DNA from: Enterococcus hulanensis
GTDB taxonomy: Bacteria; Bacillota; Bacilli; Lactobacillales; Enterococcaceae
Assembly: GCF_005405485.1 (NCBI RefSeq)
Contig: NZ_BJED01000004.1
Coordinates: forward strand, 62,001 to 126,000
DNA: 64,000 nt
Direction of reading: 5' to 3'
How positions within the stretch are numbered: position 1 is the first letter of the stretch; each line of letters starts with the position of its first letter. The position numbers and the translations under genes are program-made. Below are positions 44,613 through 64,000 of the stretch, one piece after another. The notes beneath the pieces are model-generated. The model was given only the letters and a program-made list of their open reading frames with translations. It had not been told where the DNA came from and ran no database searches.

Positions 44613-44628
44613 GATTGGAGGAATGTGC

Positions 44629-46103: not shown

Positions 46104-46114
46104 CAGAATATACC

Positions 46115-46145
46115 AGCGACTTCTAATAACAGAAGTCGCTTTTTT
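46115..46145 (+). terminator. terminator after the mobT unit
   Basis: AGCGACTTCT and AGAAGTCGCT form a 10 bp stem with a 6 nt loop and six T residues. Confidence 0.85.
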
Positions 46146-46166
46146 AATGAAAGTGAGGAATAATAA

Positions 46167-46388: not shown

Positions 46389-46400
46389 GGAGGTACGAAA

Positions 46401-46901: not shown

Positions 46902-46955
46902 TTTATATCCTTATACGTTATAATAACTGTAGCTGCTGTTATAGGAGGTGTTAGG

Positions 46956-47975: not shown

Positions 47976-47990
47976 CAAGTAACTACTATT

Positions 47991-48024
47991 AAGAGCATTC
48001 CTCTAAGAAGGGCTGCTCTTTTTC
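47991..48024 (+). terminator. terminator before tcpE
   Basis: AAGAGCA and TGCTCTT form a 7 bp stem followed by TTTTTC. The gap is compact, so some readthrough into tcpE is likely. Confidence 0.55.
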
Positions 48025-48054
48025 TATGCACTGAAGTAGAAAGGATGTGATATT

Positions 48055-48450
48055 TTGAAAAAAATCAGAAGTTATACCAGTATTTGGTCAGTAGAAAAAG
48101 TTCTCTATGCCATTAATGATTTACAACTCCCCTTCCCCATTACCTTTACTCAAATGACGTGGTTTGTGGTGTCATTACTGGCGGTGATCCTCTTTAGTAA
48201 TATACCACCTCTGTCTTTCATTGACGGGGCATTACTAAAATACGTAGGATTACCAGCAGCACTGACATGGTTTATGAGCCAAAAAACCTTTGATGGAAAA
48301 AAGCCTTATGGTTTCTTAAAATCAATCCTCAGTTATTGGCTTCGTGTCAAGGTCACCTATGCTGGAAAAACAGTTAAACTACAAAATCAGAAACTCAATG
48401 AAGCCATTACGATCGTTAGGAGTGAAATGTATTATGGCGTATCCAATTAA
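48055..48450 (+). CDS. tcpE: TcpE-family conjugation membrane protein, Tn916 Orf17
   Basis: A 131-residue TcpE-type protein with two membrane helices (about residues 28-45 and 55-72), preceded by RSYTSIWSVEKVLYAINDLQLPFP, the typical start. It belongs to the transfer pore with the VirB4-like ATPase. TTG 48055 follows GAAAGGATG. Its end overlaps the next gene by 17 nt. Confidence 0.85.
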   Translation: MKKIRSYTSIWSVEKVLYAINDLQLPFPITFTQMTWFVVSLLAVILFSNIPPLSFIDGALLKYVGLPAALTWFMSQKTFDGKKPYGFLKSILSYWLRVKVTYAGKTVKLQNQKLNEAITIVRSEMYYGVSN

Positions 48451-50884
48451 ATATATTGAAGACAATTTAGTGTTCAATCATGATGGCGAATGTTTTGCTT
48501 ACTATGAGCTGATTCCTTATAATTACAGCTTTTTAAGTCCTGATGAGAAATACCAAGTACATGATAACTTTCGTCAGTTAATCGCTCAGAATCGCGATGG
48601 TAAAATCCATGCTTTACAACTAGCGACAGAAGCCAGTATCCGAGCCACACAAGAACGATCAAAAGAAGAGATCACTGGACGATTAAAAGAAGTCGCCTAC
48701 AATAAACTAGACGAACAAACCGAAGCGTTAGTTTCTATGATTGGCGACAATCAAGTAAACTATCGCTTTTTTATTGGCTTTAAGCTGCTTTTAACGGAAC
48801 AAGAACTTTCCCTAAAAAATGTACAGTCTAGTATCAAAACTGCTTTTCTAGACTTCTTAAATGGTGTTAATCACAAATTAATGGGCGATTTTGTTTCAAT
48901 GCCTAAAGCAGAGATTGACCGCTTTGCGAAAATGGAAAAACTTTTAGCGAGTAAAATTTCTCGTCGCTTTAAAGCACGTGCCTTAGATAAAAACGATTTT
49001 GGCTATCTCATCGAACATCTTTACGGCAATCAAGGTACGCCCTTTGAAGAGTATGATTATCATTTGCCTAAGCGGTATCGGGATAAAGAAGTGCTCGTAA
49101 AGAAATACGATCTATTGAAACCAACACGCTGTCTCATCGAAGAAAAACAACGTTACTTAAAGCTAGAACATGAGGACAGTACCACTTATGCCGCTTACTT
49201 TACCATCAACTCAATTGTCGGTGAGTTGGATTTTCCAAGTAGTGAAATCTTTTATTATCAGCAACAACAATTTACCTTTCCGATTGATACCAGCATGAAT
49301 GTAGAAATTGTGGCAAATAAAAAGGCTTTATCGACGGTTCGCAATAAGAAAAAGGAACTTAAGGACTTAGATAGTCATGCATGGGAAAGTGACAATGAAA
49401 CCAGCACCAATGTAGTAGATGCCTTGGAGTCAGTTAATGAACTAGAAGCAAATCTAGATCAAAGCAAAGAAGCCATGTACAAGTTGAGTTATGTGGTACG
49501 TGTGACGGCGAAAGACTTGGATGAATTGAAACGCCGTTGTGATGAAGTCAAAGACTTTTACGATGACTTGAGTATTAAATTGGTTCGCCCGTTTGGCGAT
49601 ATGTTGGGCTTACATGGGGAATTTATCCCTGCTTCTAAACGCTATATCAATGATTATATTCAGTATGTCACTTCGGATTTTTTGGCTGGACTTGGTTTTG
49701 GAGCAACACAAATGCTTGGGGAAAATGAAGGGATTTATGTCGGCTATAATCTCGATACTGGGCGAAATGTGTATCTAAAACCAAACCTTGCCAGTCAAGG
49801 TGTGAAAGGTTCTGTGACGAATGCCCTTGCGGCGGCTTTCCTTGGTTCCCTTGGTGGCGGAAAATCATTTTCTAATAATATGCTGGTTTACTACGCTGTG
49901 CTCTTCGGTGGTCAAGCCGTGATCGTTGATCCGAAAGCCGAACGTGGTAATTGGAAAGACACTTTACCGGAAATTGCCCATGAAATTAATATCGTTAATT
50001 TAACAAGCGAAGAGAAAAATAAAGGGTTGCTTGATCCCTATGTCATTTTAAAACGCAAGAAAGATGCCGAAAGCTTGGCGATTGATATACTCACCTTCCT
50101 AACTGGTATCTCTAGTCGTGACAGTGAGAAGTTCCCTGTTTTACGAAAAGCGATTCGGGCAGTAACGCAAAGCAAACAACGTGGATTATTACTAGTGATT
50201 GATAAATTACGTGAAGAAAACACACCGATTAATCAGAATATCGCTGATCATATCGAAAGCTTTGTGGATTATGACTTTGCCCATTTACTCTTTAGTGATG
50301 GTTCCGTGAAACAATCGATTAGTTTGGAAAAACAATTAAACATCATTCAAGTGGCGGATTTAGTCTTACCTGACGCAAACACTAGTTTTGAAGAATACAC
50401 GACTATGGAATTGTTGAGTGTTGCCATGTTAATTGTGATCAGTACCTTTGCCCTTGATTTTATTCACTCTGACCGTTCTATTTTTAAAATCGTTGACCTT
50501 GACGAAGCGTGGAGCTTCTTACAAGTTGCCCAAGGAAAGACCCTTTCTATGAAGCTAGTCCGTGCTGGACGTGCCATGAATGCGGGGGTCTATTTTGTTA
50601 CCCAAAATGCCGGAGACTTACTAGACGAAAAAATGAAAAATAATATTGGGTTGAAGTTTGCCTTTCGCTCAACTGATTTGGTGGAAATCAAGAAAACATT
50701 GGAATTTTTCGGGGTGGATGCCGAGGATGAAACCAATCAAAAACGATTGCGCGACTTAGAGAACGGACAATGCTTGATGTCTGATATTTACGGTCGAGTT
50801 GGTGTGATTCAGTTCCATCCGATTTTTGAAGAACTCTTACACGCCTTTGATACGCGTCCGCCGATCCGAAAAGAGGTGGAATAA
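48434..50884 (+). CDS. VirB4-like conjugation ATPase, Tn916 Orf16 (TcpF-like)
   Basis: An 816-residue ATPase that energises the mating channel. The N-terminal half is the VirB4/TraC regulatory domain; Walker A is FLGSLGGGKSFSNN and Walker B FKIVDLDEAWSFLQ. FVTQNAGDLLDEKMKNNIGLKFAFRS near the C-terminus is typical of VirB4. The start is ATG 48434 behind AGGAGTGA inside tcpE; a longer frame to 48344 is not supported. It is coupled to the next gene by TAATG. Confidence 0.92.
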   Translation: MAYPIKYIEDNLVFNHDGECFAYYELIPYNYSFLSPDEKYQVHDNFRQLIAQNRDGKIHALQLATEASIRATQERSKEEITGRLKEVAYNKLDEQTEALVSMIGDNQVNYRFFIGFKLLLTEQELSLKNVQSSIKTAFLDFLNGVNHKLMGDFVSMPKAEIDRFAKMEKLLASKISRRFKARALDKNDFGYLIEHLYGNQGTPFEEYDYHLPKRYRDKEVLVKKYDLLKPTRCLIEEKQRYLKLEHEDSTTYAAYFTINSIVGELDFPSSEIFYYQQQQFTFPIDTSMNVEIVANKKALSTVRNKKKELKDLDSHAWESDNETSTNVVDALESVNELEANLDQSKEAMYKLSYVVRVTAKDLDELKRRCDEVKDFYDDLSIKLVRPFGDMLGLHGEFIPASKRYINDYIQYVTSDFLAGLGFGATQMLGENEGIYVGYNLDTGRNVYLKPNLASQGVKGSVTNALAAAFLGSLGGGKSFSNNMLVYYAVLFGGQAVIVDPKAERGNWKDTLPEIAHEINIVNLTSEEKNKGLLDPYVILKRKKDAESLAIDILTFLTGISSRDSEKFPVLRKAIRAVTQSKQRGLLLVIDKLREENTPINQNIADHIESFVDYDFAHLLFSDGSVKQSISLEKQLNIIQVADLVLPDANTSFEEYTTMELLSVAMLIVISTFALDFIHSDRSIFKIVDLDEAWSFLQVAQGKTLSMKLVRAGRAMNAGVYFVTQNAGDLLDEKMKNNIGLKFAFRSTDLVEIKKTLEFFGVDAEDETNQKRLRDLENGQCLMSDIYGRVGVIQFHPIFEELLHAFDTRPPIRKEVE

Positions 50885-53229
50885 TGAAGCGTCATGAAGA
50901 AAAGAAACAACAAAGACTACAGACTAAACAGATCAAAAGGCAAAAGAAGATTCAAAAGAAAGCAACTAGTAAACAGCTACCACTCTATAAAAAAGTGGGG
51001 CGTTACGCGGCTCTTTCACTGGTCGGTATATGTGTCATTCTTGTTCTCCTTGCCAGTCTTGGAACAGTAGTACATGCGGCTGGGTTAGTGGATGATACGA
51101 TCAACACTGCCAATGAGTATTCCAAATATGGGCTGGCTAACTACCAGCTTGACTTTTATGTAGACAATAGTTGGGGCTGGCTACCATGGAATTGGTCAGA
51201 TGGCTTGGGAAAAAGTGTTATGTACGGCTTATATGCTATCACTAATTTTATTTGGACAATTTCACTATACTTGTCCAATGCTACTGGCTATTTAATTCAA
51301 GAAGCCTACAACTTGGATTTTATCAGTGATACCGCTGATTCTATCGGAAAGAACATGCAAACCCTTGCTGGGATCACTCAAAATGGCTTTTCCAGCTCTG
51401 GCTTTTATGTTGGTTTCCTGTTGATCTTTATTTTAATTCTAGGAATCTATGTTACGTATACCGGCTTAATCAAACGAGAAACCACCAAAGCCATTCAAGC
51501 CATTATGAATTTCTTGGTGGTCTTCCTTTTGTCGTCTTCCTTTATTGCTTATGCGCCTAGCTATATTGAAAAGATCAATGATTTTTCTAAGGACATCAGT
51601 ACCGCCAGCCTTGATGTTGGTACCAAAATTGTATTACCCAATAGCAATAGTCAAGGAAAAGACAGTGTGGACATGATTCGAGATAGTTTGTTTGCGATCC
51701 AAGTGAAACAACCGTGGTTGCTTTTACAGTATGATTCAACGGATGTGGATGAAGCCAGAGAAGAAAAGCTGTTAGCAGTCAGTCCTGATACAAACAATGG
51801 GAAAGACCGTGAAATGGTAGTCATTGATGAGATTGAAAACCAAGACAATGCCAATCTATCGCTTGCCAAAGTCATTAATCGTTTAGGTATAGTTTTCTTT
51901 TTATTTGTGTTTAATATCGGTATCTCTATCTTTGTTTTCTTATTAACCGGAATGATGATCTTTTCTCAAGTACTCTTTATCATTTTTGCCATGTTCTTAC
52001 CGATTAGTTTTCTATTAAGTATGATCCCTAGTTTTGATGGAATGGGCAAACGTGCGATTACAAAATTATTTAACGTGATCATGACTCGTGCTGGCTTAAC
52101 CTTAGTGATTACCGTAGCCTTCAGTATTTCTTCTATGCTTTATTCATTGGCTGGCTCCGCGCCTTTCTTTATGACCATGTTTTTACAAGTTGTTACCTTT
52201 GCCGGAATTTATTTTAAGCTAGGCGATATTATGAATTTATTCGCCCTACAAAGTAATGAGTCTCAAAGTATGGGGCGACAATTATTAAGACGTCCGCGTA
52301 TGTTTATGACTCGCCAAAGCCGCCGACTTCAACGCACAATGCGACAGGTCATGCGTGGAACTACCCACCAAACAACAACGAAAGCTGCGAGCAACGGCGT
52401 CCAACCAAAAAGCAAGTCAGCCACCCATGAGCGCGGAAATCAAAGTAGACGGAATCCAACGACTCAACCGACTCATTCCGATAATCAACCGAACAACCTT
52501 GGGGCAAAAGCAGGAGCAGCAGTCGGCAATGTACTAGATACTAAAAATCGAGCATTAAACAAAGCCACAGAACTAAAAGATACAATTAAGGACGCACCGA
52601 CTAATGCAAAATATGCTTTGTATAAAGGACAGCGTGAGTTAGTGCGTAACGCAGCTGATTTTTCATCAACCCTAAATGATACTAGAACTCAAAAGCAAAC
52701 CAAGCGTGAACAACAACACCACCAGCGTCAAATGACGATTGCCCAACGGCGGTTGGAAATGGAAAAAACCAAACAAACAAGACTGCATCCAACAACTCCA
52801 GCTAACACGAAACCAAAAGAACAACCAATAAATCCAGCACACAAGCGACCAATAAAAGCTAAACCAGCGCTCCCTTCCCAATCATCAGTACCAAAACAGG
52901 ACAATGTTCCAAACAACTCGCCAAAAGTTGCTGAAAACCTTAGACCCGTTGTTAACTCTGTACCACCTAAGAAAACGGTCACTTTATCGGAATCCGATAA
53001 ACGATTAGCATTACCAGAACCACAAGTAACTAGACCTGCAACAGTAACAAAGAATATGATTCCATCATCCGAGCCAAAAGTGCCAAGATCAACCTCAGTA
53101 CCCAAAACTACTAGCCAAACAAAGAACTCACAACGTGTCTCTTCACAAAAGCAACAAACAGTAACAACGAAACATTCGGCAAATAAAACGAAGAAAAGAC
53201 AAAAGAAGAAACCGAGGTCGAAGCTATGA
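50884..53229 (+). CDS. polytopic conjugation channel protein, Tn916 Orf15 type
   Basis: A 781-residue VirB6-like membrane protein. A basic N-terminus (about 35 residues) precedes a first helix, and five to seven more helices lie between residues 110 and 460. The last 300 residues are hydrophilic, Gln/Lys/Pro-rich and low in complexity, ending KKRQKKKPRSKL; this tail is expected in the cytoplasm. ATG 50884 overlaps the preceding stop by one nt and the gene overlaps the next by four. Context makes the assignment firm despite low conservation. Confidence 0.85.
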   Translation: MKRHEEKKQQRLQTKQIKRQKKIQKKATSKQLPLYKKVGRYAALSLVGICVILVLLASLGTVVHAAGLVDDTINTANEYSKYGLANYQLDFYVDNSWGWLPWNWSDGLGKSVMYGLYAITNFIWTISLYLSNATGYLIQEAYNLDFISDTADSIGKNMQTLAGITQNGFSSSGFYVGFLLIFILILGIYVTYTGLIKRETTKAIQAIMNFLVVFLLSSSFIAYAPSYIEKINDFSKDISTASLDVGTKIVLPNSNSQGKDSVDMIRDSLFAIQVKQPWLLLQYDSTDVDEAREEKLLAVSPDTNNGKDREMVVIDEIENQDNANLSLAKVINRLGIVFFLFVFNIGISIFVFLLTGMMIFSQVLFIIFAMFLPISFLLSMIPSFDGMGKRAITKLFNVIMTRAGLTLVITVAFSISSMLYSLAGSAPFFMTMFLQVVTFAGIYFKLGDIMNLFALQSNESQSMGRQLLRRPRMFMTRQSRRLQRTMRQVMRGTTHQTTTKAASNGVQPKSKSATHERGNQSRRNPTTQPTHSDNQPNNLGAKAGAAVGNVLDTKNRALNKATELKDTIKDAPTNAKYALYKGQRELVRNAADFSSTLNDTRTQKQTKREQQHHQRQMTIAQRRLEMEKTKQTRLHPTTPANTKPKEQPINPAHKRPIKAKPALPSQSSVPKQDNVPNNSPKVAENLRPVVNSVPPKKTVTLSESDKRLALPEPQVTRPATVTKNMIPSSEPKVPRSTSVPKTTSQTKNSQRVSSQKQQTVTTKHSANKTKKRQKKKPRSKL

Positions 53230-54230
53230 AAGTACGTTATATGGCTATCATGGGTGTCGTCTGCTCGCTGTTCTTTAGCTTGTTATTGTTCTTTGTAGTA
53301 ATTACAGCAGATTCCGAAGATCGCACAGCCAACCAAACAGCAGTAAATGGCGGCTTGAATGTTTCTCCCGAAGTATTAAAGCACAAAGCATTGGTTGAAA
53401 AATATTGTAAAGAATACGAAATTGAGGAATACGTGACTACTATTTTAGCCATCATGCAAGTGGAATCGGGCGGTACGGCGGTGGATGTGATGCAAAGTTC
53501 AGAATCGTTGGGATTGCCGCCAAATAGCCTAAGCACTGAGGAATCCATTAAACAAGGCTGTAAGTATTTTAGTGAGCTATTAGCTACTGCTGAGAAACTT
53601 GGCTGTGATTCCGATTCAGTGATTCAAAGCTATAACTACGGTGGTGGCTTCTTACCTTACGTGGCAGCGCATGGCAAAAAATACACTTATGAACTGGCAG
53701 AAAGTTTTTCAAAGGAAAAAGCTGGTGGTAAGAAGGTGACTTATACCAATCCAATCGCCATTCCCATTAATGGCGGTTGGCGCTTTGCTTACGGCAATCA
53801 ATTCTACGTCTTATTGGTTAAGCAATATTTGACCCCTGCCCACTTTGACAATGAGACGGTACAAACCATTATGGATGAAGCATTAAAATATGAAGGCTTC
53901 CCTTATGTCTTTGGCGGCTCTTCCCCAAGTACTAGTTTCGATTGTTCTGGCTTGGTGCAATGGTGTTACGCCAAAGCTGGCATTCAACTCCCGCGCACAG
54001 CCCAAGCCCAATATGACGCAACCACCCATCTTCATTTATCTGAAGCAAAAGCTGGGGATTTGGTCTTTTTTCATTCGACTTATAATGCTGGCGAGTATGT
54101 CACTCATGTGGGGATCTATGTGGGAAATAATCGGATGTATAACGCTGGCGATCCAATTGGCTATGACGATTTGACAGACAGTTATTGGCAAGCCCATTTG
54201 ATTGGTGCAGGTCGGATTATACCTAATTAA
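53226..54230 (+). CDS. bifunctional cell-wall hydrolase with NlpC/P60 domain, Tn916 Orf14 (CwlT-like)
   Basis: A 334-residue exported protein: membrane anchor at residues 5-30, lysozyme-like domain (TTILAIMQVESGG with the catalytic Glu, then ESIKQGCKYF), and a C-terminal NlpC/P60 peptidase with the Cys in TSFDCSGLVQW and the His in YVTHVGIYVG. It opens the peptidoglycan for the transfer channel. ATG 53226 overlaps the previous stop (ATGA). Confidence 0.92.
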   Translation: MKVRYMAIMGVVCSLFFSLLLFFVVITADSEDRTANQTAVNGGLNVSPEVLKHKALVEKYCKEYEIEEYVTTILAIMQVESGGTAVDVMQSSESLGLPPNSLSTEESIKQGCKYFSELLATAEKLGCDSDSVIQSYNYGGGFLPYVAAHGKKYTYELAESFSKEKAGGKKVTYTNPIAIPINGGWRFAYGNQFYVLLVKQYLTPAHFDNETVQTIMDEALKYEGFPYVFGGSSPSTSFDCSGLVQWCYAKAGIQLPRTAQAQYDATTHLHLSEAKAGDLVFFHSTYNAGEYVTHVGIYVGNNRMYNAGDPIGYDDLTDSYWQAHLIGAGRIIPN

Positions 54231-54246
54231 GAGAGGATTTGATGAA

Positions 54247-55158
54247 ATGAAAATAAAAATTGAACGAACAAAAAAGCAACCGAAACCTAAAAAGCAAAAG
54301 AAAAGACCTACAATTAACGTGGGCATGCATAAAAAGCTGACACTTGTTTTATGGTTTGTATTAATTGGCAGTGTAGGTTTCGGCACTTATAAGAATTTTA
54401 CAGCCATCGATCGGCACACTGTGCATGAGAAAAAAGTCATTGAAACAAAGATAGTAGATACAAACCGGATTGAAAGCTTTGTGACGGCTTTCGCGACGGA
54501 TTATTATACTTGGCAACAAGGCCAATCCGCCATTGATCGTAGAAATGAGCAATTAAAGAACTATCTTACAAAAGAGCTGCAACAACTCAATTTGGAAATG
54601 GTGCGTTCCGATATTCCTACCAGCGCTACCGTTCAACGTATACAGATTTGGAGTGTCACGCGATCCGATGATAATGAATATGACGTACTCTTTTCAGTAG
54701 AACAACAGATAACTGAGAACAAGAAAAAAACTACTATCACTTCTACTTATAGCGTGCAAGTTTGTATGGATAAAGATGGAAATCTAGTAATTACGAAGAA
54801 CCCGACTATGAACAGTCAGCCTAAGAAATCAAGCTATCAACCAAAACCGCTTGAAAATGACGGCACGGTGGATGCCAGCCTAACAGCAGAGATCAATGGC
54901 TTTCTTGAAACATTCTTTAAGTTGTACCCAACTGCAACCGAAAAAGAGCTAGCTTATTATGTCAGCAATGACGCGTTACCAGTGATTCAGAAGAACTATG
55001 TCTTTGCGGAACTAGTTAACTCAATTTACTCCAAAAAAGATAAACAGATTTTTGCAAATGTGACTGTGAAATACTTAGATCAAGAAACTAAGACCACTCA
55101 CCTTGCACAATATGAACTGATCCTTGAGAAGCAGGATAACTGGAAAATAATACTATGA
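54247..55158 (+). CDS. tcpC: TcpC-family conjugation protein, Tn916 Orf13
   Basis: A 303-residue bitopic protein: a basic cytoplasmic segment rich in KKQPKPKKQKKRP, one membrane helix around residues 32-50, then two NTF2-like TcpC domains outside (FVTAFATDYYTW and FLETFFKLYPTA begin each). It is a scaffold of the transfer pore. The start is ATG 54247. It is the last transfer gene; cargo follows. Confidence 0.88.
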   Translation: MKIKIERTKKQPKPKKQKKRPTINVGMHKKLTLVLWFVLIGSVGFGTYKNFTAIDRHTVHEKKVIETKIVDTNRIESFVTAFATDYYTWQQGQSAIDRRNEQLKNYLTKELQQLNLEMVRSDIPTSATVQRIQIWSVTRSDDNEYDVLFSVEQQITENKKKTTITSTYSVQVCMDKDGNLVITKNPTMNSQPKKSSYQPKPLENDGTVDASLTAEINGFLETFFKLYPTATEKELAYYVSNDALPVIQKNYVFAELVNSIYSKKDKQIFANVTVKYLDQETKTTHLAQYELILEKQDNWKIIL

Positions 55159-55341: not shown

Positions 55342-55935
55342 TCAATATCCTTTTACTCTAATAATTCCCAATTCAATAGCTTGAATAATTGCAGAAACAG
55401 TTGAATTTACCCCTAATTTATTATTTATGGAAACAAGATGATTGTTTACTGTTCTTCTACTAATATAAAGACGTTCTGCTATTTCCTGTTGCCTAAGACC
55501 TTCTGCGGCACATTTTAGTATCTCTTTTTCTCGTTCACTCAGAACATCTAATGTACTTTGGCACTTGGGTAGCAGATTATTTCCATGATGTATTTTTTTT
55601 AAATCATCATATAATTCTTCAATTGTTACATTTTTATTTAATAGTCCCCATGCTCCAGACTTTATTGCTTCATTCTTATATTCAATTAAATCAAAGCCCG
55701 ATAAAAAAACTACTTTTTGATACGGAAATTTTTCAAGAATTTCTTTAGATATATCAAATCCACTTAACTTTCCAATATGGATATCTAATAATACTAAATC
55801 TGGTTGATCATTTTTTAGTTTATCTAAAAATATTTCTGGCTCAGTAAAACTAATTATTGAGATATCCATTGGTCGAAATGCAATTTCCAGACTCTTAGAA
55901 AAAAGTGCATGATCATCTAGTAAATATACTTTCAT
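55342..55935 (-). CDS. NarL/LuxR-type response regulator of the lasso cluster
   Basis: A 197-residue response regulator: receiver domain with acidic pair Asp7/Asp8 and phospho-acceptor Asp51 in LVLLDIHIG, and a C-terminal LuxR helix-turn-helix (LSEREKEILKCAAEGL, then EIAERLYISRRTVNNHL). It overlaps the kinase gene by four nt and is divergent from the lasso genes. It most probably controls the lasso promoter near 58324, although the binding site is not known. Confidence 0.88.
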   Translation of the reverse strand: MKVYLLDDHALFSKSLEIAFRPMDISIISFTEPEIFLDKLKNDQPDLVLLDIHIGKLSGFDISKEILEKFPYQKVVFLSGFDLIEYKNEAIKSGAWGLLNKNVTIEELYDDLKKIHHGNNLLPKCQSTLDVLSEREKEILKCAAEGLRQQEIAERLYISRRTVNNHLVSINNKLGVNSTVSAIIQAIELGIIRVKGY

Positions 55936-57893
55936 GAACTTATATCCTCCTTTGCAATCGGTAAAGTTATTGCAAATTTTGTTCCATGCGGGTTTACAGA
56001 CGATACCTTCATTTTCCCGTCTAATGAATTAACTTCTTGATTTATTGATAAAATACCAAAATGCTTATTTTCAAACTCCCTAAGTTTTATCTTACTATAA
56101 TCAAATCCTGTACCGTTATCTTGTACAATGGCTTCAATGTAAAATTCACTTTGAATAAGTGCAACAAAAATTTCTGTTGCTTGAGAGTGTTTTAATGCAT
56201 TAGTTATTAATTCTTGCATAATTCGATAAATATGAAACTTCTCTTCTTTTTTTAAATGAGTTTCTTGTGGACAATAAAAATTAACAACTATAGATTTATG
56301 CTCTTCATTGAATTTATCACAAAGAATTCGGATACTTTGTGATAAAGGTGCAGTTTCAATTGTCGAAGGATATAGTTCAAATATTTTGTCTCTAAAGGTT
56401 TTATTTAAGGTATCAAAAGTTTCTAATACTAATTTCTTTGTTTCTACATTTTCAGTAGACATAGATTCGATTAATTTTTTTAAAGCTAAAATATTTTGCA
56501 AAACATTGTCATGGATAAAAAATGAAAAATCTTTATGAAAATTTTGCACCATGTTTAAATATTCATAATTCACGTATTCATCATAAGATAAACTTTCTAT
56601 TTTTAGAGCTTCTTGTTTAACATCATATAATCGTTCATTTTCAATAATTATTTTACCAACAACACAAACTAAATCATTTATTTCTTCACATTTCACATTT
56701 TCCAAATCATGGCTTCCCCCTTTATCAATGAGTAACCAACCTAAAATATGTTTATTCTCAAAAAAAGTAAATTTTCTAAATACATTGTTGTGATAATGGA
56801 ATATGTTAGAGTTGAGTTCAAATTCATCAATAATTTTATTTGTTAAAATCAATCTGGAAAGTTCCCCTGAGCTAGACAAAATATAAGGTTGGTGTTGATC
56901 TTTCCAAACCATTAAATAGCTATCTATTTCATAATGCTGTAATAAAATTTTACTAATTAAAGTACTCACTGAAGACAAAGTTTTTTCTTTACTGATAGTT
57001 TGCACAAGTTCAATTTTTTCTTTTTGAAACTCTTTTTTTCTTTGTTGAATTCGTCTCACTTCAATACTACTCAGATACCAATTCTTCAAATAAAGGATGA
57101 ACAAAATCAAGCCATAAAAAATAGAAATAAAATAGATATCAAATATAGATAACCGGAGAAAATAATAATTAATAATGAAGAAGACTCCTATACAAATAAT
57201 ATGAGTAAACAAATTTATAAAAATCGTAACTTTGTTTAGGCGAATTTCATTACGCTTTATTAAAATAATACCGACTGTAAGTGGAATAAAAAAAAGAATT
57301 AATCCACTTAATATTGAAGTAGAAATAATTAACGAAAACAGTGCCAAAATTAATATTCGAATTAAAAGAATCTGCTCTTTTTTAGTCTGAATAGTTAATC
57401 GATCTTTTCCTTTGAAATATAGAAATAGGCAACTAATTATATCTAAAACAAGTACTGTGCTTACCATCCACTTGAATTTTTCAAAATTCATCAACAACAA
57501 CATGGCAACAATAGTAGATTGTACAAATAAAATTCGATTAACTCTAATTGAAATAGATGAGGCTGAAATTAAATTGAAAGTGCAAAAAAATTTATAAATG
57601 AGATATGGTAAAAAGGAAATTAATATATTTTTAACAGGATAAATAAAAGAATAATGTAATAGTCCCAATACTAAGGAAATAGCAGTAAAGAAAGTAAGGA
57701 TTGCAAAGTATCTAATCCTTTTAATATCTCTAGAAATGAAAATAATGATAGCACAAAAAAGGATAAGCCCAACAATAATCGGTATAACAATTGTTGCTTG
57801 CGATTCATACAAATTGTCCTTCTGCTTAATAGTAAGTAGAGATATCACCAAGAATACAAACAAGGATGACAAGTAAATAAATTTTTCTTTCAT
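55932..57893 (-). CDS. membrane sensor histidine kinase of the lasso cluster
   Basis: A 653-residue kinase. About ten membrane helices in the first 280 residues resemble the ComP-type peptide-sensing kinases. A linker, GAF-like region and HisKA_3-type dimerisation helix with the phospho-His in FFIHDNVLQN follow. The HATPase domain shows ELITNALKHS (N box) and VQDNGTGFDY (G1 box). Together with the LuxR-type regulator it forms a two-component system; the peptide product itself could be the signal, but this is inference. Confidence 0.85.
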   Translation of the reverse strand: MKEKFIYLSSLFVFLVISLLTIKQKDNLYESQATIVIPIIVGLILFCAIIIFISRDIKRIRYFAILTFFTAISLVLGLLHYSFIYPVKNILISFLPYLIYKFFCTFNLISASSISIRVNRILFVQSTIVAMLLLMNFEKFKWMVSTVLVLDIISCLFLYFKGKDRLTIQTKKEQILLIRILILALFSLIISTSILSGLILFFIPLTVGIILIKRNEIRLNKVTIFINLFTHIICIGVFFIINYYFLRLSIFDIYFISIFYGLILFILYLKNWYLSSIEVRRIQQRKKEFQKEKIELVQTISKEKTLSSVSTLISKILLQHYEIDSYLMVWKDQHQPYILSSSGELSRLILTNKIIDEFELNSNIFHYHNNVFRKFTFFENKHILGWLLIDKGGSHDLENVKCEEINDLVCVVGKIIIENERLYDVKQEALKIESLSYDEYVNYEYLNMVQNFHKDFSFFIHDNVLQNILALKKLIESMSTENVETKKLVLETFDTLNKTFRDKIFELYPSTIETAPLSQSIRILCDKFNEEHKSIVVNFYCPQETHLKKEEKFHIYRIMQELITNALKHSQATEIFVALIQSEFYIEAIVQDNGTGFDYSKIKLREFENKHFGILSINQEVNSLDGKMKVSSVNPHGTKFAITLPIAKEDISS

Positions 57894-58323
57894 AAACTTC
57901 CCTCCAATCTAATTATTTCTTCACCATCATATAAGTTATTATTTTTCAAAGAATACGGAATTGGATATCAGAATTTGTAATTCGATCAAACTCATTCTTA
58001 AAACCAATCCTCTTTATAAAAGCTTATAAATCATCAATATCTAAATTTTTGGTGCTTCATAAGCGCGTAAATAATGGGGGTTCTATTTTTATTCATCTCT
58101 AAGTATATTTTAATCTACAACTTAATCATACTCCTTCTTAAATAATTGCACAATGTACTCATTACAAGAAAAAACTCTTCTTGTAAAATTAATACATCAG
58201 TTAGAGAAAGGATATATATTAATCGTTATTTATGAGAGTTTCTCTAAAAAAGAAATATCCAAACATAAAGATAACAAATCACAACAATGCACTTTTCTGA
58301 TTTAGGAAGTTTTATTTTTGTGT

Positions 58324-58352
58324 TTGACAAGCATATCGACAATGTCTATTTT
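58324..58352 (+). promoter_or_regulatory. promoter of the lasso operon
   Basis: TTGACA (58324-58329), 17 nt and TATTTT (58347-58352). GACAA and GACAAT recur within the region and might be regulator contacts. The transcript would have a leader of about 80 nt. Confidence 0.6.
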
Positions 58353-58377
58353 TGAGCACTTGGCAACCAAAGTAACT

Positions 58378-58405
58378 ATTTTCTAATGTGAATGAATTAG
58401 AAAAT
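58378..58405 (+). promoter_or_regulatory. inverted repeat in the lasso precursor leader
   Basis: ATTTTCTAAT and ATTAGAAAAT pair perfectly over an 8 nt loop in the 5' leader, 35 nt before the precursor start. It could be a regulator site or an RNA stem protecting the transcript. Confidence 0.5.
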
Positions 58406-58439
58406 TTAGTGTACAGAAAATAAGTAGGAGGTGAACTCT

Positions 58440-58577
58440 ATGAAAACACAAAATTACAGTAAACCATCAATCGAAAAAATTGCAGGTTTCAAAGAATCTA
58501 CTCGTGGTCTTTGGACAGGTAAATTTAGAGATGTATTTGGTGGGCGTGCTCTTTTCCAAATTGTAATTTATTACTAG
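58440..58577 (+). CDS. lasso peptide precursor
   Basis: A 45-residue precursor with a strong AGGAGGTG ribosome site. The 22-residue leader contains the YxxP motif (Tyr6-Ser-Lys-Pro9) recognised by RRE proteins and Thr at position -2 (Thr21). The predicted core begins at Gly23; Asp31 is core position 9, giving a nine-residue macrolactam ring GLWTGKFRD and a tail VFGGRALFQIVIYY of 14 residues. There is no Cys, so a class II lasso without disulphide. Calculated monoisotopic mass of the threaded product is about 2687.4 Da (23 residues less one water). The core is not one I recognise. Confidence 0.9.
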   Translation: MKTQNYSKPSIEKIAGFKESTRGLWTGKFRDVFGGRALFQIVIYY

Positions 58578-58607
58578 GATAGAAGAATTGGAAATAATTA
58601 AGCCAGT

Positions 58608-58641
58608 GGTCATCGAATTATGCGATTCGATGACCTTTTTT
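58608..58641 (+). terminator. attenuator between precursor and lasso cyclase
   Basis: GGTCATCGAAT and ATTCGATGACC form an 11 bp stem with a 6 nt loop, then six T residues. Partial readthrough would give far more precursor than enzyme transcript, as is common in RiPP clusters. Confidence 0.85.
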
Positions 58642-58674
58642 ATAATCTGGATAATCTTTAGGGAGGTGCTTCTA

Positions 58675-60462
58675 ATCGCTGTAAACAAATCAAATACATC
58701 AATATCTGAAAAAGAAACAATGTTTCAAAAACGGATTACTACAAACTACACTAATATACTCCTTGTCTCCAATGTAGAGTACACTCAACATACTCATAAT
58801 CAATTTGAAATCTACTGCATTTCTTCTGAATACTCGAGGATATTTTGTAATAAAGAACAATTTAATTACTCTTCCACAGAAAATACATTGGAACATCTTC
58901 AGAAAAATATTTTCAAAGGTATATTTGTTTTAATAACTGGAGAAGGGCTATTCATGGGAGGACCATTATTTGATGTTTCTCTTTCATGGGTGGATTTAAC
59001 TAATGAACTAATCATTAGTGATTCATCAACAAATATCGCATTATTTCTTGATTTACCAATTTCAAAATCGGCAATTGCATTGAATCTAATTCATAATTTA
59101 CCATATTATCCATTTCAAAATATACCATTGTGGGAAAAAGTCAATACGATCCAACCATTCTATATTTTGAAATGTACAACAAATGGAATCTTAGAAACAA
59201 TACAAACTTGGACGCCTCCAAATCTAGAAAATAAGGTCGAATCTATTTATCCCAAAATAAGAGAACGTCTTCTAGAAATCCTTAGTCAAAATACCGTTAA
59301 TTACTCTGAGATATCTGCTGATCTATCGGGTGGAGTTGATTCAGCAACAATTATTTACATTTTAAAAGCTCTTCAAGCTAAAATTAAACTTTATCACGCA
59401 AACGCTGACAGTGAATGGAATAGTGATTCTACATGGGCAAAATTAATCTCAAACGATATTAACACCATGTTTACTTCATTACCATCACTAGGTAGCTCAG
59501 GAAATAATTTTAAAATAGATATAGATTACTCCAATTCTGTGCTGCCAGATTCTCCCCTATTTTGGGCAGATACTGAAGGATATGTTGAATCTATAGAAAG
59601 TGCAGCATTGACTCCAGCAAATGCCACTCATTTTACTGGTCTTGGTGGGGATGAATTATTCACCCCTATGCCTGCCAACGCATGGTCTCTTGTACGCCAA
59701 AATAAATTACGCAGTATAGACTTAGGTTTACGATATTGTTTACTAAATCGGATTCCAATTTCAGTTGGGACAGTAGATCTAATAAATAATACTTCCTTTA
59801 AAGAAGCTGTAAAAAACGAAATAGATAAAGGGTTTGGCTATACTAAAACAACTCGTCAAAGTTCTACACTTAATTGGTGTGGTCCTGTCACAGTACCAAA
59901 TTGGCTTACGAAGCCTTATCGAGAATTAAGTTACAACGCTCTAATAAAAAAATTAGACAACACATTGGATTCCTTAGACTCTGATCGTTCTCGACACCAG
60001 ATGATTGAGTCTCTACTCTTTCAAAGACATTTGATAACCCAGATTAATAACCTATATGGTGTTAACGGTATGACTTGGCAAGCTCCTTTTTTAGATGTAG
60101 ACATTATTAATTATTCTTTAGCTATACCAGCTCGTTATAGACAAGATCATAATATAACAAAATCAATTTTATATAATTCTACTAAAGGACTTGTTTCAAA
60201 AAATATTTTTACACGTGGGTTTAAAGGAGATTATTCCACTGGTTTGTATAAAAGCTACAAGGAAGCTGTAAAGAAGTATTCCCAGAAAGTGCACCAATTT
60301 AAGCTAGTTGAGTTGGGAATTATAGATGCAGATATACTAATTTCTGAATTATCAATGCCTTCTGCTCTACATACTAGAGTTGAAGCTGTTGAGAGATTAG
60401 CAGCTGTTGAACGCTGGCTTCGTGTAGCTTTAAAAAAAATAGAAAAAATGAAAGAAAATTAA
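58675..60462 (+). CDS. lasso cyclase, asparagine synthetase-like (C protein)
   Basis: A 595-residue ATP-dependent enzyme that adenylates the Asp9 side chain and joins it to the core N-terminus. The N-terminal glutaminase-like domain lacks the catalytic Cys2. The synthetase domain has the PP-loop LSGGVDSAT (about residues 217-225) and GLGGDELF downstream. The start is unclear: GGGAGGTG at 58661-58668 is followed in frame by ATC 58675 (seven nt on), with no ATG, GTG or TTG suitably spaced. GTG 58666 and ATG 58720 are poor alternatives. I use the ATC. Confidence 0.88.
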   Translation: MAVNKSNTSISEKETMFQKRITTNYTNILLVSNVEYTQHTHNQFEIYCISSEYSRIFCNKEQFNYSSTENTLEHLQKNIFKGIFVLITGEGLFMGGPLFDVSLSWVDLTNELIISDSSTNIALFLDLPISKSAIALNLIHNLPYYPFQNIPLWEKVNTIQPFYILKCTTNGILETIQTWTPPNLENKVESIYPKIRERLLEILSQNTVNYSEISADLSGGVDSATIIYILKALQAKIKLYHANADSEWNSDSTWAKLISNDINTMFTSLPSLGSSGNNFKIDIDYSNSVLPDSPLFWADTEGYVESIESAALTPANATHFTGLGGDELFTPMPANAWSLVRQNKLRSIDLGLRYCLLNRIPISVGTVDLINNTSFKEAVKNEIDKGFGYTKTTRQSSTLNWCGPVTVPNWLTKPYRELSYNALIKKLDNTLDSLDSDRSRHQMIESLLFQRHLITQINNLYGVNGMTWQAPFLDVDIINYSLAIPARYRQDHNITKSILYNSTKGLVSKNIFTRGFKGDYSTGLYKSYKEAVKKYSQKVHQFKLVELGIIDADILISELSMPSALHTRVEAVERLAAVERWLRVALKKIEKMKEN

Positions 60463-60507
60463 TGCTTATTAACTTGTAGTTATTTTCTAAAAAAGGGAGG
60501 AATAAGA

Positions 60508-60759
60508 TTGATGAGAAAAGTAAAAAGAGAGCTAAAAATTATTAGTCAAGATGATGGAGCAGTCGTTTTGGATAAAAGTAGAGGAATTTATTTTCAAATA
60601 AATGCTTCTGGAGTTGCTATGTTAGAAGGTTTGAGTAAAGGATTGACTGTAGAAGAATTAGCACTACAATTGGAAACCTCTTTTTCTCTAGATAAAGCTC
60701 AAGCGAAAGCAGATGTTGCTGAGTTTATGACTCTTTTAAAGGAGATGAAACTTGCATAA
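60508..60759 (+). CDS. lasso RRE protein (B1, PqqD-like)
   Basis: An 83-residue RiPP recognition element of the PqqD fold: ELKIISQDDGAVVLDKSRGIYFQINASG is the winged-helix strand region, followed by helices TVEELALQLETSF and ADVAEFMTLLKEM. It binds the leader and presents it to the peptidase. GGGAGGA is followed by TTG 60508 at seven nt and ATG 60511 at ten; either could start. It overlaps the next gene as TAATG. Confidence 0.88.
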   Translation: MMRKVKRELKIISQDDGAVVLDKSRGIYFQINASGVAMLEGLSKGLTVEELALQLETSFSLDKAQAKADVAEFMTLLKEMKLA

Positions 60760-63050
60760 TGAATATCCAACTTTTCCCAGAACAAATAGATCCAGTACCT
60801 TTTAGTGCAAGATTTCTGGCTCGCTTGAGTTTAATACTGTCTGCACCGCTTAATTGGATGTCTCCTGGGAGAATTGAAAAAATTTTATTAAAATTGATAA
60901 AAAACAATCCTCCCGCATCAGAAAAACAGGTAAAGATTGCACGAAACGCAGTGTGTATCGTAAGTAGTAGATGTAGAAGTCAAGAAGGATGTCTTAGACG
61001 ATCACTTGCTGTTGTATTAGTACTATGGCTACAACGTAAATCAGTAAGTTGGTGTACAGGATATGCACAAGAACCATTTAGAGCACATGCCTGGGTAGAG
61101 TTAAATGAATGTCCCATTGGAGAGCCAGCAGAAGTTCAGATATATTCTAAAGCGATATGTGTTCCACATCATTCAAATGATATCCTCAGAAAGGAGTCGT
61201 ATTTGAAGAAAATGAAACAAGAAACTATAGAACGTAAAAAAAAAGAATCCGAAATTATTCATTCGGAAAATCATACACCTTCAGTAAACATTAGATCGCT
61301 GTTTGCATTAGCAAAGGGACACAACTGGGAATTCATTTGCGTTGGAATACTAGGGTTAATCAGTGCAGCTTTAACTCTCGTTCAACCTAACCTTGTTGCC
61401 AATTTAATTGACCAATCAGATACAGGAATTAAGATTAATTCAAGTTTAGGCATTCTCATTATAGTGTTGATACTATCAACGATTTTAACAGCTATCCAGT
61501 ATTATTTGCTACAAATAATTGGTGAAGGAGTCGTTTTTAAAGCACGCAAAAGTTTAATTAGTCACTTATTAAGATTACCAATTCATGAATATGATACACG
61601 AAGTGTAGGCGATCTACTGAGCAGAGTTAGTGGTGATTCTTCTAAATTGAGAATGGCTTTGATACAAGTAAGTATTGCGCTAAGTAGTGGTTTTTTAGTC
61701 GTCATTGGAGCAGCTGTCGGTATGATTTTGAGAGATTCTCTGCTATTTATTTTGGCTCTTTCAACAGTTTGTGTATCATTTATCGGGACTATCATTATGA
61801 GCAAATCCATACAAAAAGCTAGTTTTTCTGCACAAAAAGAATTAGGGAAATTAAGTGGAGATATCGAACGTGATTTACATGCTATTAGAACTATTCGTGC
61901 AACAAATGCAACAGATCTAGAAGAGAAAAAATCTAAACTTCAAGCAGAACGATTGCGTAATATTGGAATAAGATTAGCAAAAATACAAGCGTTCATGGCC
62001 CCTGTTTCCAATATGACTCTGCAATTATCTGGTCTAATTGTGCTGGGAATAGGTGGGTACCGTGTATCCGTTGGATTAATGTCTGTAGCTGATTTAATTG
62101 CATTTGCTTTGCTACTCTATACAATGATTGGTCCCATAGGACAAGTTTTCAATGCTTTCGGAGGTGTTGGAGAATCACTCGGTGCTTTTGCTAGAATTCG
62201 CGAATTATTAGAACTTGCATTAGAAAGTGATTATGATGTTACCCCTGTCATACCTCCTATTTCGAATTTAATAGCTGAAGAAGCTGCAGTTTATTTTGAA
62301 AACGTCAGCTTTGGCTATAATAAAATGAAATTTGGGTCTGACCCTAAGGAGCAAGAAGAAAATATGATTCTTAAAGAAGTGACATTATGTGCAGAAAAAG
62401 GAAAAAGAACTGCAATTGTGGGTCCCTCTGGTGCTGGAAAGAGCACCATGCTTCAATTAATTGAAAGATTTTATGATCCCGACAGTGGTCAGATATTCGT
62501 TCAAGGTAAGGATTATAGACATTATAGTAGAGAAGAGCTTCGAAGCTGCATCACTTATGTTGAACAAGATGCTCCCGTTATTTCTGGAACACTACGTGAC
62601 AATCTACTTTTGGGAAATCCTGAAATATCTGATTCAAACTGCATCAAAGTATTAGAAGAGGTTAATCTTCATCATTTATTAGAACGAGATTCTAAAGGAC
62701 TTGATACACAAGTTGGAGAGTCTGGAGCAAATCTCTCTGGCGGAGAAAGACAACGTTTAGCGATGGCACGTTCGCTTTTGTCATCTGCAGAAATTGTTTT
62801 ACTAGATGAATTAACCTCTAATTTGGATAGCTTAAATGAATTAGGAATGAAAAAAGCAGTGGATAAATTGAAAGGTAAAAAAACAGTTATCGTTGTAGCA
62901 CATCGTCTATCTACAATAATTGATTCTGATATCATTTATGTTCTTGAACACGGTAGAGTTGTCGGTTCAGGGAATCATAATGAGTTACTTGATACAGTTC
63001 CACTTTATCGGGAATTAGCGAAAGAACAATTTGTGGATAGAGAAGTATAA
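60759..63050 (+). CDS. lasso leader peptidase (B2) running in frame into an ABC exporter (D)
   Basis: A 763-residue continuous frame. Residues 1-140 are a transglutaminase-like leader peptidase with Cys78 (QEGCLRRSL) and His110 (FRAHAWVEL); Glu122 in IGEP lies where an acidic third residue is expected. Residues ~170-460 are a six-helix ABC membrane domain and 500-760 an ATPase with Walker A GPSGAGKSTM, signature LSGGERQRLAM and Walker B VLLDELTS. In known clusters B2 and D are separate. An AAGGAG at 61191-61196 and TTG at 61203 (codon 149) could also start the exporter separately. Confidence 0.88.
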   Translation: MNIQLFPEQIDPVPFSARFLARLSLILSAPLNWMSPGRIEKILLKLIKNNPPASEKQVKIARNAVCIVSSRCRSQEGCLRRSLAVVLVLWLQRKSVSWCTGYAQEPFRAHAWVELNECPIGEPAEVQIYSKAICVPHHSNDILRKESYLKKMKQETIERKKKESEIIHSENHTPSVNIRSLFALAKGHNWEFICVGILGLISAALTLVQPNLVANLIDQSDTGIKINSSLGILIIVLILSTILTAIQYYLLQIIGEGVVFKARKSLISHLLRLPIHEYDTRSVGDLLSRVSGDSSKLRMALIQVSIALSSGFLVVIGAAVGMILRDSLLFILALSTVCVSFIGTIIMSKSIQKASFSAQKELGKLSGDIERDLHAIRTIRATNATDLEEKKSKLQAERLRNIGIRLAKIQAFMAPVSNMTLQLSGLIVLGIGGYRVSVGLMSVADLIAFALLLYTMIGPIGQVFNAFGGVGESLGAFARIRELLELALESDYDVTPVIPPISNLIAEEAAVYFENVSFGYNKMKFGSDPKEQEENMILKEVTLCAEKGKRTAIVGPSGAGKSTMLQLIERFYDPDSGQIFVQGKDYRHYSREELRSCITYVEQDAPVISGTLRDNLLLGNPEISDSNCIKVLEEVNLHHLLERDSKGLDTQVGESGANLSGGERQRLAMARSLLSSAEIVLLDELTSNLDSLNELGMKKAVDKLKGKKTVIVVAHRLSTIIDSDIIYVLEHGRVVGSGNHNELLDTVPLYRELAKEQFVDREV

Positions 63051-63100
63051 TTTCCCATTTGTAAGTACAATAAATAAAAAATTTTAAAGGAGTTGTACTA

Positions 63101-63808
63101 TTGAAAAATATTATAATATCAAATGTATGCAAGCAGCATAAAAATAAAAATATACTGGAAAATATAACCTTCAAAGCTACAGAAGGACGTATAACAGCTT
63201 TTCTTGGTCCAAATGGAGCTGGAAAGAGCTCTACACTTAGAATCCTACTTGGTTTAGATCGCCCTTCATCTGGAACAGCAACTTTCGAGAACAAAAAATA
63301 TAGTAATTTCACTTTTCCATTACAAATTGTCGGATCAGCATTCGATGGAATTGGTGGAACCCCATCAAGAAAAGTTCAAACACATCTGAAAATTATAGCG
63401 AAAAGTAATAATATACCAAATAAACGCATTTCAGAAGTTTTAGATATTGTTAATCTATCAAAAAAAAGGCATTCACAACTTGGAACCTTATCTTTAGGTG
63501 AAGGACAAAGGTTAGGTATTGCTATTGCTCTACTGGGTGATCCTCAGTATCTTGTTCTTGACGAACCAACAAACGGATTGGATCCCATAGGTATAAAATG
63601 GTTTAGAAATTTTATTCGTGAACAAGCTAATCAAGGAAAGACTGTATTACTCTCCTCACACTATCTTACTGAAATCGAAGCTATTGCGGACGACGTTGTT
63701 ATCATTAATAACGGGCAGATTGTTGTAACCGGTGAGCTTCATGAAGTGATGCAAAGTATTGAAACCTTAGAAGATGTATTCTTTCTACTTACTGAGGGAG
63801 GAAATTAA
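63101..63808 (+). CDS. ABC transporter ATPase, probable lasso immunity
   Basis: A 235-residue ATPase with Walker A GPNGAGKSST, signature SLGEGQRLGI and Walker B LVLDEPTNGLDPIG followed by the H-loop SSHYLTEIEA. This is the bacitracin/lantibiotic-immunity type of ABC-2 ATPase. TTG 63101 follows AAAGGAG. With the permease that follows it probably removes the mature lasso peptide from the membrane, complementing the exporter. Confidence 0.85.
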   Translation: MKNIIISNVCKQHKNKNILENITFKATEGRITAFLGPNGAGKSSTLRILLGLDRPSSGTATFENKKYSNFTFPLQIVGSAFDGIGGTPSRKVQTHLKIIAKSNNIPNKRISEVLDIVNLSKKRHSQLGTLSLGEGQRLGIAIALLGDPQYLVLDEPTNGLDPIGIKWFRNFIREQANQGKTVLLSSHYLTEIEAIADDVVIINNGQIVVTGELHEVMQSIETLEDVFFLLTEGGN

Positions 63809-63812
63809 TCAT

Positions 63813-64000
63813 GAGTTTTGTTAAAATAACTTATTCCGAATTTTCCAAATTGATAAATAGTCGTGGATGGTGGATTGTTTTTGGATTAGTAATTATTCTT
63901 CAACCATTACTTGGATTATTAGAAGCTAACCAAATACTCTCCATAGGATTAGATGCAACTCCCGCAACACACCCAGACTTACTAGAAGCTATACCTCCAC
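63813..64000 (+). CDS. ABC-2 type permease (5' part, cut by the window)
   Basis: The first 62 codons (MSFVKITYSEFSKLINSRG then WWIVFGLVIILQPLLGLL) give an amphipathic start and a first membrane helix, as in ABC-2 permeases partnered with the preceding ATPase. It starts 5 nt after that gene with GGAGGAA as ribosome site. The rest lies beyond the right edge. Confidence 0.75.

Follow-up and report, generated by a model that had tools for sequence, protein, structure and literature searches.

The DNA analysed here is a 64,000-nt stretch of Enterococcus hulanensis (NCBI RefSeq assembly GCF_005405485.1, contig NZ_BJED01000004.1, positions 62,001 to 126,000 of the forward strand; hereafter the window), which carries close to its right end a predicted lasso peptide operon and, divergent from it, a two-component system. 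Coordinates are window positions on the plus strand unless stated otherwise. A first-pass annotation had proposed a class II lasso cluster in a Tn916-like element, and its named genes were all found where it had placed them. The precursor gene (58440-58577) encodes 45 amino acids (aa), namely a leader, MKTQNYSKPSIEKIAGFKESTR (58440-58505), followed by the core GLWTGKFRDVFGGRALFQIVIYY (58506-58574). As had been claimed, the precursor has a YxxP motif in the leader, Thr at position −2, Gly at core position 1 and Asp at core position 9; the core contains no Cys, as in class II, and the sequence passes the NCBIfam model lasso_leader_L3 (19.7 bits, cut-off 19). The predicted product has 23 residues with a ring from Gly1 to Asp9. 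Recomputation of its mass gave 2687.44 Da, in agreement with the value near 2687.4 Da given before.

The precursor gene is followed by a putative lasso cyclase of the asparagine-synthase-like type with an SGGVDS motif (58666-60462, start codon position uncertain), which matches Pfam Asn_synthase (84.1 bits, cut-off 21). Next comes the B1 protein of the PqqD family (60508-60759), the putative recognition element (RRE) of a ribosomally synthesized and post-translationally modified peptide (RiPP). It matches Pfam PqqD and, in PDB, TfuB1 (6jx3, E 2.2e-6), a lasso RRE. Leader peptidase and exporter are both present, but not as the two proteins listed before: they form a single fusion of 763 aa (60759-63050) with an N-terminal Transglut_core3 (B2) domain and a C-terminal ABC exporter. 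The B2 domain matches NCBIfam lasso_biosyn_B2 (78.3 bits, cut-off 33), and in an alignment inspected by eye, Cys and His at the presumed triad positions are kept in 7/7 sequences, while the third residue is changed from Asp to Asn in 6/7. The immunity-type ABC transporter had been placed inside the stretch, which holds for its ATPase (63101-63808); the first ABC-2 permease (63811-64000) is truncated where the window stops and complete at 8812-9597 of L002, the stretch of the same genome continuing past the window, and the second lies wholly beyond (L002 9597-10325). The best NCBIfam match of the ATPase is TIGR03740, a lantibiotic-protection ATPase (191.7 bits, below the cut-off of 309.75), and both permeases match Pfam ABC2_membrane_4 (40.1 and 42.2 bits, cut-off 27).

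Cyclase searches gave matches in 3/105 genomes of the family (E 1e-10) and, at E 1e-40, in 5/395 genomes of the order and 1/398 of the class, the latter two sets being samples and the own genome being included each time; a scan of genome contigs found one locus, in BWB1-3. The cyclase of genome G088 is 70% identical to that of the window. Among plasmids, 19 records matched the cyclase, the best from Streptococcus salivarius (36% identity), the remaining 18 being actinobacterial (about 19-24%). A plasmid search with the precursor found two Streptococcus plasmids, where it is annotated as a “putative RiPP precursor”, besides a chance-level Pseudomonas match (E 8). Ten precursors from eight loci, i.e., the one in the window and nine from seven other loci, were aligned. 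Tyr6, Lys8, Pro9, Thr(−2) and core residues Gly1, Arg8, Asp9, Gly12, Arg14 and Ala15 are invariant, and the motif FRD[VI]FGGRA is found in 9/10, the exception being the diverged G423 type with core GAGGARERDLLGFRALIVIHWPWL. The G423 cluster (L017 9348-15949), located between a relaxase and an integrase gene, has unfused B2 and exporter. S. salivarius and G354, the latter probably a streptococcus, have two precursors each.

With counterparts in seven other loci and mostly synonymous codon changes, the precursor appears to be more than a chance open reading frame (ORF). Compared to the window, 4 synonymous and 1 non-synonymous changes were counted in BWB1-3, 5 and 2 in G228, and 10 and 3 in G088. 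The core, which was new to the first-pass annotation, is nevertheless not isolated; judged by its sequence, it joins a small family of conserved cores as a new member. It is very improbable that the lasso system is non-functional, with a chance precursor ORF or a broken operon. One relative would fit such a state, as the fused peptidase/exporter frame of G228 is truncated at 433 aa (L015, reverse strand 11727-13028), but in the window the frames of kinase, regulator, cyclase and ATPase have no internal stops, the exporter fusion is complete, and nine further precursors align with the one in the window.

The order precursor-cyclase-(RRE)-B2/ABC-ATPase-permeases is common to BWB1-3, G228, G088, S. 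salivarius and G354, the RRE falling under the size filter in some gene listings of relatives. The class II lasso assignment is supported by matches to family models, by the conservation of the precursor and by synteny of the cluster. Mobile settings recur as well: relaxase genes lie upstream in G354 (together with MobC) and G423, an integrase is present in G088 and G423, and the S. salivarius and S. equinus copies are on plasmids, both typed as non-mobilizable. According to the PLSDB tables, which are incomplete, the S. equinus plasmid CP020439.2 carries a precursor and a two-component system together with the ABC trio, with cyclase, RRE and B2 not annotated nearby; CP020439.2 was also not among the records returned by the plasmid search with the cyclase. 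A trio kept without modification enzymes fits a protective role for the ATPase and permeases, and the S. equinus cluster is consistent with a protection remnant.

Two structured sites flank the precursor gene. Ahead of it, a palindrome, TTTTCTAAT-N8-ATTAGAAAA (58379-58404), is mostly kept in BWB1-3 and G228 and weak in G088. Between precursor and cyclase, a hairpin resembling an intrinsic terminator (58608-58635) was found; a hairpin with a T run occurs 3′ of the precursor in the window, BWB1-3, G228 and G088, and the stem in G088 shows one compensating pair change (T-A to C-G). In the S. salivarius stretch scanned, no hairpin was found on the corresponding strand. The hairpin in the window is likely an attenuator giving more precursor than enzyme.

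The two-component system is present as annotated before, but had been listed just as an accessory and proved to be the more unusual part of the locus. Encoded on the minus strand are a ComA-type response regulator (55342-55935; receiver and LuxR-type helix-turn-helix domain) and a ComP-type sensor kinase (55932-57893; hydrophobic N-terminus, HD..Q motif, HATPase_c), where ComP/ComA-type denotes the families of kinases and regulators beside ComQ-like genes. In G088, comQ-, comX-, comP- and comA-like genes all stand beside the same type of lasso operon. The ComQ-like protein of G088 (284 aa, DDLLD motif) is encoded between kinase and precursor, and matches Pfam polyprenyl_synt at 27.9 bits (cut-off 27) and a PDB polyprenyl synthetase weakly (E 0.013). 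The ComX candidate of G088, identified by size, position and C-terminal Trp, ends in Trp-Pro-Lys, and this Trp would be prenylated. Its gene lies on the same strand as the lasso precursor, about 64 nt apart, and no terminator was found in the gap. We also considered from this locus that the ComQ-like enzyme might prenylate Trp3 of the lasso peptide. This is less likely because a separate ComX-like ORF ending in Trp-Pro-Lys exists in G088, with equivalents at other ComQ loci.

The linkage of such kinases to ComQ-like genes is not limited to G088. A ComQ search gave matches in 10/395 order genomes at E 1e-5, G088 among them, and in four of the other nine (G288, G051, G049, G283) a kinase/regulator pair adjoins the ComQ-like gene. 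At class level, a ComQ profile matched 58/398 genomes; the best three (G690, G685, G622) have the same pair adjacent, and most of the others are weaker and probably represent housekeeping polyprenyl synthases. The neighbourhoods read were five of the ten at order level and three of the 58 at class level. So that loci were not chosen by comQ, a kinase profile was run over the 105 family genomes as well, and nine loci in seven genomes were found (E 1e-40). Five of these adjoin an intact comQ-like gene (G088, G051, G049 and two in G086); in G017 (L070 4478-7489), the kinase is split over two frames and accompanied by a partial comQ-like frame of 150 aa; and no comQ-like gene was seen beside the kinase at the remaining three, i.e., the window, the BWB1-3 lasso copy and G064. 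The G064 locus (L068 4098-6660) is a kinase-regulator pair without comQ beside it, and no lasso cluster was seen in the stretch. Counting five loci from the order search, three from the class search and the two of G086 from the kinase search, the pair stands beside the ComQ-like gene in 10/10 intact ComQ loci read. Genome G086 is BWB1-3, which has two complete comX-comQ-comP-comA-like loci (L067 3740-7457 and L069 511-4179) in addition to its receptor-only lasso copy. The module of G288 (L028 10157-11230) lies beside two small hydrophobic peptides which, by eye, resemble circular bacteriocins, and no lasso cluster was seen in that stretch; ComQXPA-like modules may pair with more than one kind of bacteriocin.

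A small ORF near comQ with a Trp among its last four residues was found in 9/10 intact loci (G088, G288, G051, G049, G690, G685, G622 and both of G086); in G283 the Trp is the ninth residue from the end. Some of these ORFs were selected by a Trp filter, those of G088 and G288 by a ribosome-site filter and that of G690 by box position alone. For background, 40-80-aa ORFs were counted in nine sources (eight ComQ loci and the window, pheromone candidates included): 37/561 have Trp in the last four residues and 6/561 end in WPx. Five candidates end in this way, G088 with WPK, G288 and G051 with WPR, G049 with WPN and G690 with WPM. Four of these WPx ORFs are on the strand opposite to comQ, and in G690 the ORF is downstream of the regulator gene.

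All five WPx candidates share the sequence TTGCACAATRTAC, which ends 60-65 nt before their ATG. The window has this box as TTGCACAATGTAC (58146-58158). It is the sole exact copy in the 4.74-Mb genome, where the reversed pattern used as control is absent (0 copies), and 0/100 shuffles of the window contain it. Directly 3′ of it lies a promoter-like pair, ATTACA-17-TAAAAT (58161-58189). In G088, the box stands before comX, which is followed by the lasso precursor, and the box is kept in the three lasso copies without comQ (window, BWB1-3, G228). This arrangement suggests that the box is the operator of the regulator, inherited by the lasso operon.

In the window itself, the signal genes are missing. 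The G088 ComQ has no match in the own genome at E 1e-3, nor any match among plasmids; a five-row ComQ profile gave a single match in the own genome (G000 C2, E 9.2e-11, a 336-aa frame), which, like the matches in many of the 58 class genomes, is probably a housekeeping polyprenyl synthase. Among ORFs of 30-100 aa within 57000-60000, two (30 and 32 aa, minus strand) have a Trp followed by 1-4 residues, and neither ends in WPx or follows the box. Candidate comX remnants in BWB1-3 and G228 were unsupported, as 77 and 129/200 shuffles (protein) and 116 and 253/500 (DNA) did as well.

Meanwhile, the receptor appears to be maintained. In a tree of the kinases, those of the window, BWB1-3 and G228 group together as a single clade (100/100), next to comQ-linked kinases from G088 and G288; its other eight kinases all come from loci picked by comQ, and several of them have long branches. 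A single clade of kinases without comQ makes one loss the simplest reading. Among the three copies, kinase dN/dS is 0.172-0.184 for the whole protein and 0.192-0.199 for residues 1-290; the cyclase (0.113-0.15) and the immunity ATPase (0.068-0.072) have lower values. The sensor domain is under purifying selection without its original signal genes, though more weakly than these two proteins.

What would the kinase respond to? It is possible, to a degree short of even odds, that it has been rewired to sense the lasso peptide itself, as in nisin-type autoinduction, and that loss of comQ and comX removed a redundant signal. The constraint on the sensor domain in three copies lacking both genes would fit this, as would the position of the two-component system beside the lasso precursor in 3/3 copies of the clade read and the divergence of the window kinase from that of G088, which is higher in the N-terminus (dN 0.467) than in the C-terminus (0.163). 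However, sensor divergence is usual between ComX pherotypes as well, which counts against such rewiring, and a foreign pheromone could also trigger the same kinase clade. Eavesdropping of the kinase on prenylated pheromones of other cells, e.g., G088-like carriers, would make the locus a receptor-only variant of ComQXPA. We rate this as unlikely, though by no means remote: the box and an intact kinase and regulator were retained although the signal genes were lost, and complete ComQXPA-like loci exist in the family of the window, two of them in the BWB1-3 genome that also has a receptor-only lasso copy. On the other hand, the sensor divergence from G088 may abolish cross-talk, and the own genome has no second copy of the kinase family at E 1e-40.

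It is rather doubtful that the two-component system is just a decaying leftover, with the lasso operon transcribed from its own constitutive promoter. Loss of comQ and comX points in this direction, as do the split kinase and partial comQ-like frame of G017 and the weaker constraint on the kinase than on the immunity ATPase, but kinase and regulator are intact in 3/3 lasso copies with a dN/dS of 0.13-0.23, near that of the cyclase (0.11-0.15), and the box is retained in all three.

The lasso operon lies in a mobile element of about 37.9 kb at the 3′ end of sufB, a gene named by eye. The sequence TTACCCCACA, as at the sufB 3′ end, occurs at window positions 18442 and 34902 and at L002 17753 (about window 72752); the second copy (34902-34911, no strand assigned) is the left and the third the right attachment site of the lasso element. 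The conjugation module (41716-55158) contains, by Pfam, two DUF961 proteins, FtsK/SpoIIIE, Rep_trans, AAA_10, a protein with Lysozyme_like and NLPC_P60 domains, and TcpC, the latter at most 64% identical to plasmid copies; the Pfam search of two further large ORFs gave no match. These conjugation proteins and the repeated sites bear out the Tn916-like assignment. A 396-aa tyrosine integrase stands beside sufB on L002, beyond the window end, and together with the attachment sites bounds the element. From these genes, conjugative transfer is predicted. The three site copies suggest that a pair of elements is inserted one after the other at the 3′ end of sufB, with the lasso operon on the right-hand one. 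Other cargo on L002 comprises a methyltransferase, further genes and several short ORFs, two of which were put to Pfam without a match. For the BWB1-3 relative, the integrase is 86% identical and the element end looks similar by eye; its conjugation block has apparently been reduced by deletion to a fragment of the AAA_10 gene.

The apparent left-hand element of the tandem (18442-34902) has its own integrase (33631-34809), a Rep_trans gene (30672-31973) and SnoaL-like genes. The left end of the element carrying the lasso operon encodes an AAA_13 protein (35208-37601), whose best PADLOC match is the candidate defence family PDC-S06 (724 bits).

Considering all this, we think it probable that the window contains a lasso bacteriocin operon on a Tn916-type element under density-type ComP/ComA control, whose pheromone was lost and whose receptor was kept. 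In such a system, the PqqD-type RRE would bind the precursor via its YxxP leader, the B2 domain would cleave the leader and the cyclase would join the free Gly1 to the side chain of Asp9. The ABC half fused to B2 would export the product, and the adjoining ATPase and two permeases would confer self-protection in the manner of LanFEG. The conserved hairpin after the precursor gene probably holds precursor output above enzyme output, and the kinase and regulator would switch on expression at the TTGCACAATRTAC box. The ancestral module presumably made its own prenylated-Trp pheromone by means of comQ and comX, as G088 appears to do; the lineage of the window would have lost both genes and retained receptor, regulator and box. 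The present input of the kinase would most likely be either the lasso peptide itself or a pheromone from other cells. The target of the peptide may be the cell envelope, a guess from the LanFEG-like trio and from the resemblance to streptomonomicin discussed below.

Several observations weigh against this interpretation. Lasso-specific models were not passed by the cyclase and the RRE: the cyclase matches lasso-type NCBIfam models below cut-off, and the RRE reaches 57.6 bits against the lasso PqqD model (cut-off 70). The cyclase profile found zero PDB chains at E 0.001. The ComQ-likeness in G088 consists of a bare Pfam pass, a weak PDB match and synteny. The box in the window ends 281 nt before the precursor ATG, and a nearer promoter may serve. 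Of the ten intact ComQ loci, five showed no box in the stretches covered. The region of the window has no excess of promoter-like sites (3 versus 5.6 expected from shuffles). A decayed comX suspected by eye at ORF 58153-58305 was rejected, as 93/200 protein and 263/500 DNA shuffles scored as well. Further, the pair in G064 has no comQ beside it and no lasso cluster seen in its stretch, so comQ loss may be unrelated to the lasso operon. The kinase is also less constrained than the immunity ATPase (0.17-0.18 versus 0.07). Finally, since the streptococcal clusters have another two-component system, ComPA control is not general to this lasso family.

The first-pass annotation had held that, to its knowledge, lasso clusters in Enterococcus-like conjugative elements are not established. 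Predicted clusters in enterococci and streptococci are in print, but without a product: four lasso loci in marine enterococci (PMC8229437), and loci in two isolates of S. salivarius, of which one is called “related to streptomonomicin” (PMC8546964). A 2016 review mentions a few predicted streptococcal loci and states that no lasso peptide of lactic acid bacteria had been reported by then (PMC4786598). The ComQXPA census counts 20 loci outside the B. subtilis clade, and a few of its loci, in Lysinibacillus fusiformis and B. cereus strains, have a hypothetical comX on the opposite strand; its main text does not contain the strings Enterococc, Lactobacillales or Streptococc (PMC4008528). In a 2025 survey, Bacillaceae were the only family with comX close to class II lanthipeptide clusters (PMC12715929). 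Searches of the open-licence PMC literature found no lasso cluster linked to ComQXPA, no described match for ComQXPA with Enterococcus or bacteriocin, and no description of a matching lasso cluster (conjugative element, Enterococcus, Firmicutes fusion, S. salivarius); for five core fragments the sole match was a ferritin paper. What is new here is the ComP/ComA-type control module beside a lasso operon, with ComQ- and ComX-like genes kept in G088.

A coupling of lasso peptides to ComQXPA would extend prenyl-pheromone signalling to enterococcal bacteriocins. The receptor-only copies provide a clear and testable case of a signal lost and a receptor retained on a mobile element, and a conserved core family with self-protection genes, a fused peptidase-exporter and identifiable control is a practical target. 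We advance more tentatively, as something short of an even chance, the wider proposal that mobile lasso operons in enterococci are wired to ComQXPA-type signalling and that the window is a receptor-only version firing on foreign pheromone or on its own lasso peptide. If true, signal-cheating and weapon release would travel together by conjugation.

The core was compared in register to 57 of the 62 lasso cores in Table 1 of PMC12427821, leaving out Astexin-1 (non-standard letter) and the near or exact duplicates Lariatin B, Lariocidin B, Moomysin and Siamycin I. The top match is propeptin (score 26, 6 identities), a score reached against the whole set by 124/5000 shuffles, followed by SRO15-2005 (score 23, just 3 identities, 270/5000) and by streptomonomicin and actinokineosin (score 21, 6 identities each, 437/5000). 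The likeness to propeptin and actinokineosin lies in RD-[LI]-FGG around the ring-closing Asp9, and streptomonomicin shares Leu2, Asp9, Gly12, Ala15, Leu16 and Ile19 with the window core. Compared to all three, the window core has other ring residues and a longer tail. With the whole set of compared peptides taken into account, the resemblance to known actinomycete cores is modest, suggestive rather than strong. Searched against PDB, the core gave only three weak matches to a membrane protein (E 0.44-1.5). According to PMC6784204, resistance to streptomonomicin maps to WalR, like that to siamycin-I, a binder of lipid II.

Likeness was also found to the streptococcal plasmids. The precursors of S. 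salivarius pSsal-YU10 (NZ_MN480763) and S. equinus CP020439 have the motif FRD[VI]FGGRA like the window, and pSsal-YU10 also agrees in gene order and in the B2-ABC fusion, with a cyclase 36-37% identical to that of the window and with two precursors. Its two-component system is different (OmpR/HisKA-type) and located on the opposite side of the cluster. The fusion of B2 and exporter is not new, since it was already reported in Ruminococcus, with earlier cases cited there (PMC7533575). As in LanFEG/nisin-type systems, an ATPase and two ABC-2 permeases accompany the bacteriocin together with a two-component system, whereas the kinase is ComP-type rather than NisK-type, and the ATPase stays below the lantibiotic-protection cut-off. 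The element resembles the Tn916 family in having TcpC, Rep_trans, FtsK, AAA_10, NlpC/P60 and DUF961 in a single block, and differs in its lasso cargo, its insertion at the sufB 3′ end and its own 396-aa integrase. With the ComQXPA system of Bacillus, G088 shares a ComQ-like protein of the polyprenyl-synthetase family, a small peptide with C-terminal Trp, a kinase with hydrophobic N-terminus and a LuxR-type regulator. The window differs in that comQ and comX are missing and that the neighbour is a lasso bacteriocin operon on a conjugative element, and the ComX candidates of five relatives differ in ending in Trp-Pro-x.

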